A DNA stretch of 64,000 nucleotides, from NCBI GenBank assembly GCA_028690215.1, contig JAQVBQ010000001.1, forward strand, positions 1-64,000. The letters are read 5' to 3'. This stretch comes from Bacteroidales bacterium. Its GTDB lineage: Bacteria; Bacteroidota; Bacteroidia; Bacteroidales; UBA932. This document shows, in pieces, positions 1 through 33,928 of the stretch (positions are counted from its first letter, which is position 1; each line of letters begins with the position of its first letter). Under the pieces are notes generated by a model, which was given only the letters and a program-made list of their open reading frames with translations, had not been told where the DNA came from and searched no databases. Made by a program: the position numbers and the translations under genes.

Positions 1-1
1 G

Positions 2-61
2 CCGGAGCGGGAGTTAGGAGCAATTGAAGCCATAAAGCCGAAAAAGACCTTGATTTTTTAG
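2..61 (+). other. possible 3' tail of an upstream gene
   Basis: This frame is open from the window edge to a TAG at 59-61 and would encode a short tail ending in KKTLIF. It may be the C-terminus of a gene lying before the window, or chance. The tail falls inside the left arm of the hairpin repeat at 21-198, so if real the repeat supplies its last residues and stop codon. I do not recognise the residues. Confidence 0.2.
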
Positions 62-198
62 CCGTTTCGCAGCGTGTTTTCAGGAAAAAGTGCGAGGACC
101 GTTCAACGACCGAAGGGAGGCGTTCCGCAGCACCCTGAAAACACGCAAGAAACGGCGTTAAGAAAAATCAGCGTCTTTGAGGTTTATGACTTCAATGC
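21..198 (+). repeat. long imperfect hairpin repeat, family 1, copy A
   Basis: The segment folds back on itself over almost its whole length. ATTGAAG at 23-29 pairs with CTTCAAT at 190-196; the TGATTTTT near 51-58 pairs with the AAAAATCA near 163-170; CCGTTTC at 62-68 pairs with GAAACGG at 149-155; GCGTG at 72-76 pairs with CACGC at 142-146. The central 67 bases (76-142) match copy B (2856-2922, opposite strand) with only two differences. The outer arms do not match copy B but still pair with each other. Function is unknown; a structured RNA or a mobile hairpin would both fit. Confidence 0.8.
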
Positions 199-384
199 GA
201 CTGAGGATGGACAGCCCTGAGACGATATATCTCCAATATATAAAGCGGCCACAGAGAACAAATAAACACTCGTAACGAAACTTATAGTGCTCGTTTTGTT
301 TCAATTCACTCGCCGTAGACTGTCACATCGAAACAAATTCAGAAAAATAATTTTCGTTTTTGTATATCGTAAAATAATTTTAGA
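199..384. other. intergenic stretch before the glpK promoter
   Basis: No open frame with coding character and no RNA gene that I recognise was seen between the hairpin repeat and the glpK promoter. The stretch is AT-rich with short A/T runs. TTTG at 359-362 is a candidate -33 element for glpK. Confidence 0.5.
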
Positions 385-2793: not shown

Positions 2794-2982
2794 TATTTGA
2801 CTATAACAGCATAATCATCGGGTACTGTGTTTTTTCTTAACGCCATTTCTTGCCGGTTTTCAGGGTGCTCCGGAACGCCTCCCTTCGGTCGTTGAACGGT
2901 CCTCGCACTATTTCCTGAAAACCGACTGCGAAAAAGGCTAAAAAAACAACGTACCCTTCTGATTAGCTGTTAAGCTCAAATA
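2794..2982 (-). repeat. long imperfect hairpin repeat, family 1, copy B
   Basis: Opposite-strand copy of the element at 21-198, placed between glpF and the convergent gene at 3011. The conserved 67-base core is 2856-2922. Outer arms pair with each other: TATTTGA at 2794-2800 with TCAAATA at 2976-2982, TAACAGC near 2804-2810 with GCTGTTA near 2966-2972, and GGGTAC at 2820-2825 with GTACCC at 2951-2956. In the stem beside the core, copy A has GCGTG/CACGC where copy B, read on the minus strand, has GTCGG/CCGGC. Pairing is kept on that strand, with one G-U wobble that would be a C-A mismatch on the other strand. This favours the minus strand as the functional one. Confidence 0.8.
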
Positions 2983-3010: not shown

Positions 3011-3901
3011 TCAACGCACATCCTTAACGATTGCGCACCTTTCAACACCGTACCAGGAGCCGAGGAAGAGTTTGCCGCCGATCTTGTCATGCACCAGAAA
3101 GCCTGCAGGAAGTTTTCCGTCGGGAGCATAGTGAACAAAGTAGTATCTGGTGCTGCTGTATTTCAGTTTACCGTTCCTGGCAATAAACGCAGTCTGGCCA
3201 TAATCAAGCTTGTTGGCAAAAGCCCAATCGTCAATATTCCTGATTCTTTTAAGGTCCTCCCAGTCTGCTATCACACACTTACCGCGGAACTCTCTTCTGA
3301 TCTGCTCATCCAGATCCATCCGGTCGCTATATCTGTTAAGAGTCACATTCAGACCACCCATATCTCCCGGACGATTTCTGTCATCGTCTCTATAACTATT
3401 TCCCTTGCTTGCAAGTATGTGGCAGTAATCCCCGTACCATGACCCGAGGAATAATTTCCCGGCAATTTTGTCATGCACCAGGAAACCTGAAGGAACACGT
3501 CCGTTTGGTGAAAAGAGGAAGAAATATACCCTGCTGCCGCTCTGAATGAAACGTCCGTTGTTTTTTACATAATATTTGCGACCCGGGATGAGCTTGGTTG
3601 AATAAATCCAACTGTCAATATCTCTGATTTGCTTTATATCATTCCATTCAGCCAATCTGAAATCGGGACCGAACTCATATGTAACCGCCTCGTCGATATT
3701 GATATCTTTCTCTATATAGGCTCCGATCGATGCCCTGAACTCTTGTCTCATATTCCTGTCATCATGCCTTTCTTGCTGCGGGTTGTTGCGGTACATTCCG
3801 CGTTCCTGAGCAATAGTGACAGTACTTGTGCCTGAAATGGTCAAAAATGCGACGAGGGAGATTACCGCCCCCTTAAAAAATAGATTAGTCTTTAATTTCA
3901 T
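3011..3901 (-). CDS. secreted protein with two homologous modules, function unknown
   Basis: The 296-residue protein begins with a signal peptide (MKLKTNLFFKGAVISLVAFL, cleavage after an SGTSTVTIAQ-like stretch). Two related modules of about 100 residues follow. Each contains a W-(N/E)-D-(I/L)-K-x-I-R-(D/N)-I-D-(S/D)-W segment and ends with GFLVHDKI-x-GKLFLGSWYG, so the gene arose by internal duplication. I do not recognise the family; export suggests a periplasmic or surface role. The ATG at 3901 is chosen over an upstream in-frame ATG at 3931, because a perfect -7 box at 3933-3940 would place transcription start close to or past the longer start. Confidence 0.8.
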   Translation of the reverse strand: MKLKTNLFFKGAVISLVAFLTISGTSTVTIAQERGMYRNNPQQERHDDRNMRQEFRASIGAYIEKDINIDEAVTYEFGPDFRLAEWNDIKQIRDIDSWIYSTKLIPGRKYYVKNNGRFIQSGSRVYFFLFSPNGRVPSGFLVHDKIAGKLFLGSWYGDYCHILASKGNSYRDDDRNRPGDMGGLNVTLNRYSDRMDLDEQIRREFRGKCVIADWEDLKRIRNIDDWAFANKLDYGQTAFIARNGKLKYSSTRYYFVHYAPDGKLPAGFLVHDKIGGKLFLGSWYGVERCAIVKDVR

Positions 3902-3932
3902 TACTGATTTTAGATTGGTTATTATTCTCATG

Positions 3933-9663: not shown

Positions 9664-9786
9664 AGTGGCACAGATTTTTGCATTTACTTCATTATAAACA
9701 CATTGCTAAAAACCACCGATGCAAAATCCCCCAGCTTAAAGACACATGTATCTGCAAATCAAATAAATGCAAAAATCTGTGCCACT
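9664..9786. repeat. MITE-like hairpin element, family 2, copy 1
   Basis: Terminal inverted repeats of 23 bases (AGTGGCACAGATTTTTGCAT plus TTA) bound a 123-bp element without coding capacity. The first 16 bases are shared with the copies at 19722 and 33777, while the next seven (GCATTTA) are particular to this copy and still pair across it. It sits between two convergent genes, two bases after the stop codon of one and overlapping the 3' end of ybaK. Confidence 0.85.
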
Positions 9787-19678: not shown

Positions 19679-19721
19679 TTTTTTCGGTTTTAATACACAT
19701 TAAAATTAGTTAATTATTTTT

Positions 19722-19834
19722 AGTGGCACAGATTTTTCTATATACCAAAATATCAATAATATAAATAAGTGAATGTTCTATTTGAGCATGTATATCTTGC
19801 CGATTGTGAGGAAAATAGAAAAATCTGTGCCACT
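19722..19834. repeat. MITE-like hairpin element, family 2, copy 2
   Basis: AGTGGCACAGATTTTTCTAT at the left end is repeated inverted at the right end, giving a 113-bp element with no coding capacity; the flanking TTTT/AAAA extends the pairing. It lies between two divergent genes, so it is not simply a terminator. The S9 peptidase promoter box begins 11 bases beyond its right end. Confidence 0.85.
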
Positions 19835-19845
19835 AAAATTTTCTC

Positions 19846-33768: not shown

Positions 33769-33776
33769 CTTTTTTA

Positions 33777-33874
33777 GTGGCACTGATTTTTCTAATTCGC
33801 TGAAATACTGACAAATACATATTACATAGTTATAAGTGTTGATAATATGCGAATTAGAAAAATCAGTACCACTA
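33777..33874. repeat. MITE-like hairpin element, family 2, copy 3
   Basis: A 98-bp element bounded by inverted repeats of 25 bases that differ at one position (AGTGGCACTGATTTTT on one end, AGTGGTACTGATTTTT on the other, then CTAATTCGC on both). The outer 16 bases are shared with copies 1 and 2, the CTAATTCGC part is not, yet it pairs across the element. It lies between hydA and the SIMPL protein gene, both on the plus strand. Confidence 0.85.
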
Positions 33875-33928
33875 TAAGTAACATGGTATAATTTATGTAA
33901 TCAGAAAATCAACCAAAACATCAAAATC

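Follow-up and report, generated by a model that had tools for sequence, protein, structure and literature searches.

The hairpins and their layout

The window (the whole 64-kb stretch of DNA analysed, which belongs to genome G000) contains two long hairpins near its left end, both of which are copies of one repeat family, referred to here as F1 (Table 1). The predicted fold of copy 1 has an energy of −76.9 kcal/mol, and 0 of 200 dinucleotide shuffles folded as well; copy 2 folds at −79.2 kcal/mol, likewise scored against 200 dinucleotide shuffles. Copy 1 is nested inside a longer palindrome, the shell, which reaches to ~263. The left part of this shell is missing beyond a short tip-proximal piece, because the first base of the window is also the start of contig C39 of G000. 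An open reading frame that adjoins copy 2 (3011-3931, minus strand) has an internal duplication (3048-3157 and 3432-3541, 72% identity). No tRNA or tmRNA gene was found in the 64-kb window.

Table 1. Coordinates of the two F1 copies and of the palindrome that encloses copy 1
Feature	Position	Strand	Description	Basis
F1 hairpin, copy 1	21..198	+	~80-bp stem; arms of the 'shell-associated' subfamily	fold z −8.5; BLAST places
Conserved F1 unit, copy 1	52..170	+	TTTTTTAGC ... core ... GCGTTAAGAAAAA	27-copy alignment; model R1, E 1.4e-24 at C39:52-170
Apical core motif, copy 1	90..108	+	GTGCGAGGACCGTTCAACG	exact pattern match
Outer 'shell' palindrome, right arm, encloses copy 1	199..263	+	TGAGGATGGACAGCCCTGAGACGATATATCTCCA...AAGCGGCCACAGAG	near-identical CF arm upstream of glpK; shell alignment
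Shell palindrome, tip-proximal left part	1..20	+	GCCGGAGCGGGAGTTAGGAG; cut by contig start	
F1 hairpin, copy 2	2794..2982	−	different arms, of AACAGCTAATCAGAAGGGTACG / GTACCCGATGATTATGCTGTT type	fold z −9.2
Conserved F1 unit, copy 2	2828..2947	−		R1 match, E 1.5e-24
Apical core motif, copy 2	2890..2908	−		pattern match

The first-pass annotation of this DNA had described a pair of hairpins, and both of them are where it placed them and fold well; the genome as a whole, on the other hand, has 17 copies rather than two. The core of ~67 nt with two differences that it had noted can be read from the sequence, but the likeness of the copies reaches further, with 84% identity across 135 nt (54-188 against 2810-2944). 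Equally readable are the stems next to the core, GCGTG/CACGC in one copy and GTCGG/CCGGC in the other, in which pairing is kept, a G-U pair included, as the annotation had said. The outer arms had been called private to each copy. Those of copies 1 and 2 are indeed unlike each other, but neither type is unique: the arms of copy 1 are common to many F1 copies (arm comparison), and those of copy 2 are also found in the C144, C115 and CF copies.

Anatomy and covariation of F1

Each F1 copy is a hairpin of ~80-95 bp, in which an apical unit of ~120-145 nt is conserved and the self-complementary arms change faster. The outer arms (~25-45 bp) differ between subfamilies and are complementary within each copy. 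Inside them, GTTTTTTAGC pairs with GCGTTAAGAAAAAC across a conserved bulge, and further in are two more stems, followed by the apical core GAGGACCGTTCAACGACCGAAGGGAGGCGTTCC. Conservation is apical, and termini conserved across the copies are absent, as the arm ends differ from one subfamily to another.

When the structure of one copy, which has 41 pairs, is applied to 27 sequences, pairing amounts to 92%, and 20 of the 41 pairs have changed on both sides. Covariation beyond chance, as the paired changes noted in the annotation had led one to expect, was found in the covariance-model alignment of genomic copies: the score is 0.280, against 0.113 ± 0.009 for shuffled and 0.033-0.078 for slid controls, in a set that is made up of related sequences, not independent events, and whose relatedness the slid controls preserve.

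Copy number and range

F1 was found at 22 places in the window's genome by DNA search (BLAST), whereas a pattern search allowing up to 3 mismatches gave 11 sites of the core motif, and R1, a covariance model built from the alignment of 27 F1 copies, gave 17 matches. Across the genus, the R1 search detected F1 in 19 of 25 genomes, at 1-20 copies each, with 20 in a relative, Bacteroidales bacterium CF (G001; hereafter CF). At least one copy is carried by all 12 high-quality genomes of the genus, and this retention hints at a function; five genomes of the genus have exactly one. In a family-wide sample of 150 genomes, F1 was present in 11/12 of the genus and in 0/138 of other genera, and an exact scan for the core in public genomes, a collection that may omit the window's species, returned only CF (CP006772) and two related MAGs. 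Many of the matches sit at contig ends, as expected, because repeats break assemblies. In G012 and G022 (L128, L129, L130), diverged F1 copies stand two or three in a row as short tandem arrays, at a spacing of ~380-420 bp.

Carriage of F1 by phages or plasmids was considered and rejected, as viral contigs gave no match to the core and plasmids no match to the unit. A literature search found no description of the repeat, nor of such repeats in this bacterial group. F1 is an undescribed family, and within the genomes sampled it is confined to a single genus of Bacteroidales.

Genomic sites

F1 copies sit at the 3' ends of genes, at non-homologous sites and in both orientations relative to their neighbours; the 48 hairpins with callable neighbours occupy 19 convergent, 27 tandem and 2 divergent gaps. 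Gene neighbours are not the same for the single copies of G003, G006, G018 and the G004/G017 pair, and a syntenic, functional single-copy gene was rejected on this ground. In the gap between ftcD and nifJ, the hairpins of G004/G017 and of G009 have opposite orientation and other arms, and they are therefore read as independent insertions.

Comparison of G000 with CF reveals several states of a site. At the C101 site, the flanks are ~405 bp apart in G000, where the site is filled, and 161 bp apart in CF, which has one bidirectional terminator there and neither F1 arms nor core. The sequence GAGAGGGC stands on both sides of this site, as a possible target-site duplication, but the target itself is a palindromic terminator. 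Fold-back duplication of the flank as the source of the arms is not supported here, since CF's empty site has neither arm. At the C19 site, CF has the arms ATTCCAATCTCAGCAACAGC/GCTGCTGAGATTGGAAT, which form a coreless palindrome of ~20 bp closed by a short loop, and G000 has related arms together with F1. Upstream of glpK, the locus of copy 1, the shell palindrome of CF is complete, has a tip of its own, GGAGCGAGCGAAGTGAGTGAGGATGG, and lacks the F1 core; G000 and CF are 97.8% identical over 229 nt to the right of the shell, on whose upstream side CF has a piece of an F1 left arm. The differences at C19 and glpK could be due to gain of F1 in G000 or to its loss in CF. Copy 2 is downstream of glpF, where CF has a shell palindrome in place of the F1 hairpin, and in L022 the nesting is the converse, with the shell between F1 arm pieces. 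F1 and the shell are thus separable modules that nest in one another.

Hairpins also lie between HsdR, DUF2130, GNAT and HipA genes, both in CF at 1932-1950 kb (L124) and on contig C134 of G000 (L132). The identity of this defence/toxin-antitoxin array between CF and G000 (~98%) is above that of other shared loci, and recent transfer is therefore suggested. With HsdR, DUF2130, GNAT, HipA and AbiEii genes in series and hairpins between them in the same orientation, F1 copies might be taken for integron-like attC sites that bound gene cassettes. The attC sites, however, have conserved R/L boxes at the base of the stem and a variable apex, whereas F1 is conserved at the apex and variable at the base. 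Since most copies are in ordinary gaps between chromosomal genes and conservation is at the opposite end of the hairpin from that in attC, the integron-cassette idea was set aside as extremely improbable. As separate observations, a 1448-aa Cas9 gene (L125, 9087-13433) starts ~400 bp from an F1 hairpin in CF, and two other F1 copies have DUF6088 and AbiEii genes between them.

IS110-family elements and other palindromes

An element encoding a 333-aa IS110-family transposase (PF01548 and PF02371 above cut-off) splits the F1 apex at the same position in G000 (C115) and in CF (near 299 kb), in different gene contexts. F1 is an IS110 target in the sense that insertion has occurred repeatedly at one place in the repeat. 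In G000, two relatives of this element (66-68% identity) occupy the tip of the shell, and all four members of the subgroup that were found by a search of the genus (E 1e-30) sit in palindrome tips (L304, L305, L306 and L307, in F1 and shell tips).

These insertions bear on the idea that the private arms were there before F1 as palindromes (terminators) unrelated to one another, and that F1 inserts only into their tips, as IS110 elements do into REP. Such tip insertion would agree with the IS110 elements that occupy both kinds of tip, with the shell without F1 at the glpK site of CF, with the coreless private arms at the C19 site, and with the nesting of shell and F1 both ways. It does not account for the empty C101 site of CF, where neither arm is present. 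Long perfect palindromes that lack the core are also rare, the 64-kb window having clear ones only from the TAGTGGCAC family. In addition, the arms of L011 and L015 and the outer flank of L045, the CF copy at 186 kb, are related but diverged, and the arms therefore seem to travel with F1. Insertion of F1 into unrelated palindromes is considered possible, if doubtful.

Two further palindromes were observed. In the window, 9664-9786, 19718-19838 and 33772-33877 belong to a second family, which has conserved outer ends and changing inner arms; its outer ends read TTTTAGTGGCAC(A/T)GATTTTT, and the same motif is found beside several F1 copies. In CF downstream of glpF (L174, L145), a palindrome GACCTTGCCAAGG...CCTTGGCAAGGTC lies near a shell copy, and pieces of it recur to the left of other shell copies.

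RNA or DNA

The first-pass annotation had taken the paired changes for the pattern of either a structured RNA or a hairpin-mobilised DNA element. If F1 were a conserved RNA structure transcribed from the core strand, either as a small RNA or as part of a 3' UTR, it would owe its covariation to selection for pairing. The very stable fold of both copies, the strong covariation, the location at gene 3' ends and the presence of at least one copy in 12/12 high-quality genomes of the genus would all be in keeping with this.

Under selection at the RNA level, G-U mismatches on the transcribed strand should be tolerated and A-C mismatches should not. On the core strand, the outer-arm mismatches of 117 hairpins comprise 150 G-T and 148 A-C, raw counts that include misaligned flank. 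In the inner stems of 117 hairpins there are 30 G-T against 18 A-C, mostly the same changes repeated in related copies. When only isolated outer-arm mismatches are counted, which have three paired bases on either side and a distinct context, there are 7 G-T against 16 A-C (P 0.09; a small set of low power). Six orthologous F1 pairs have 7 double Watson-Crick changes, where by a rough estimate <1 is expected by chance, against 27 one-sided losses of pairing, which consist of 5 G-T, 10 A-C and 12 transversions. Furthermore, 61 of the 105 double-changed cells in the covariation table are of the transversion type (a tally from which pair 14/108 is excluded), and since such changes cannot pass via G-U, they count against an RNA. 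The lack of a G-U excess leaves the RNA reading not supported, which is an absence of support and not a disproof.

Searches of Rfam (4227 families) at the gathering threshold gave no match anywhere in the window, and the best sub-threshold match of a relaxed search scored 23.8 bits where the cut-off is 100, with nothing convincing among the matches; the annotation's statement that no named RNA family is recognised stands. The arms, moreover, can persist with the whole core absent, as at the C19 site of CF. An RNA is unsupported because there is no G-U bias, because more than half of the double changes are of the transversion type, and because the copies vary in number, are found at sites that are not homologous and have either orientation relative to their neighbours; it is judged distinctly unlikely. 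The DNA-element reading, in contrast, has support from polymorphic insertion, from nesting and from the targeting by IS110 elements. Thus one half of the annotation's alternative is favoured over the other, while mobilisation by way of the hairpin stays putative.

Relation to known repeats and proposed mechanism

F1 is probably a non-autonomous, genus-restricted, palindromic intergenic DNA repeat of the ERIC/REP/MITE kind, the pairing of which, we infer, is maintained by template switching. The ERIC, YPAL, RPE and Correia-type repeats are short intergenic stem-loop elements of ~105-170 bp, which are dispersed and genus- or group-specific (PMC2229807). F1 may be likened to them, as it is also intergenic, dispersed and genus-specific and forms a long stem-loop. 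Unlike these repeats, F1 has longer stems (~80-95 bp, and more when nested), is conserved at its apex instead of its termini, has arms that change yet stay paired, and nests with a second palindrome. MITEs are comparable in being short, non-autonomous, of inverted-repeat structure and insertion-polymorphic, as F1 is at C101 (filled in G000, empty in CF), but F1 has no termini conserved across copies, and no mobiliser or partner transposase was seen in the loci examined (searches for PF01797 and one IS110).

REP/BIME palindromes are landing sites for the IS110-family elements IS621, ISPa11 and ISPpu9/10 (PMC1525189, PMC11208160). F1 is likewise an extragenic palindrome hit by IS110-family elements; it differs in being far longer and low in copy number, in having no link to RAYT genes, and in that the target is a Bacteroidales-specific sequence. 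That F1 is a REP-like repeat moved by a RAYT (Y1 HUH transposase) might be suspected from the RAYT-like genes (~270 aa, PF01797) in most genomes of the genus. Among the 31 loci scanned, however, which are mostly RAYT loci with one counted twice, an F1 hairpin is near only that of G012, and linkage to RAYT was rejected; RAYTs also occur in genomes without an F1 match, and F1 reaches only 1-20 copies. Mobilisation by RAYT is accordingly very unlikely. By analogy, F1 works like a member of the ERIC/REP/RPE class, although it has neither the conserved termini of MITEs nor the RAYT linkage of REPs.

With F1 as a palindromic DNA repeat, the arms would belong to the mobile unit and drift in sequence, and during replication one arm would be copied from the other by template switching, so that complementarity is kept. 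Template switching during replication creates and mends hairpins and brings about multibase compensatory changes (PMC8794818). Between the arms of F1, it would therefore produce compensatory double changes without a G-U preference. For instance, shell-associated arms have either ATTGAAGACATAA/TTATGACTTCAAT or ATTACAGATATAA/TTATATCTGTAAT, in which three adjacent pairs have changed on both sides, and this may be an example of such a switch, judging from the sequences. As in the template-switched hairpins of the literature, the double changes of F1 are compensatory, often multibase, and keep the stems perfect; the published cases, however, were described for RNA genes (PMC8794818), whereas F1 copies are intergenic palindromes without an RNA signature, to which the process would apply by extension.

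Hairpin tips may, in addition, be preferred and tolerated integration points in this genus, and palindromes would therefore pile up as nested modules. In a more specific version, palindromic modules would enter each other's tips by means of a tip-directed recombinase, possibly an RNA-bridged one of the IS110 type, so that nested hairpins grow from the inside and the F1 apex is the recognition site; this version is regarded as unlikely.

Implications

F1 behaves as a mobile-looking palindrome that lies inside, and hosts, other palindromes, and not as a conserved RNA gene. F1 and the shell show the nesting of palindromes in palindromes, in bacteria for which no description of such repeats was found in the literature. 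They also form a new pair of palindromic IS110 targets, and bridge-RNA guides can be checked against both tips. In addition, F1 provides a natural test case for the maintenance of hairpins at the DNA level by template switching. It is common to regard covariation in stems as proof that an RNA is functional; F1, in which strong covariation is found with no sign of RNA-level selection, serves as a warning for covariation-based RNA discovery.
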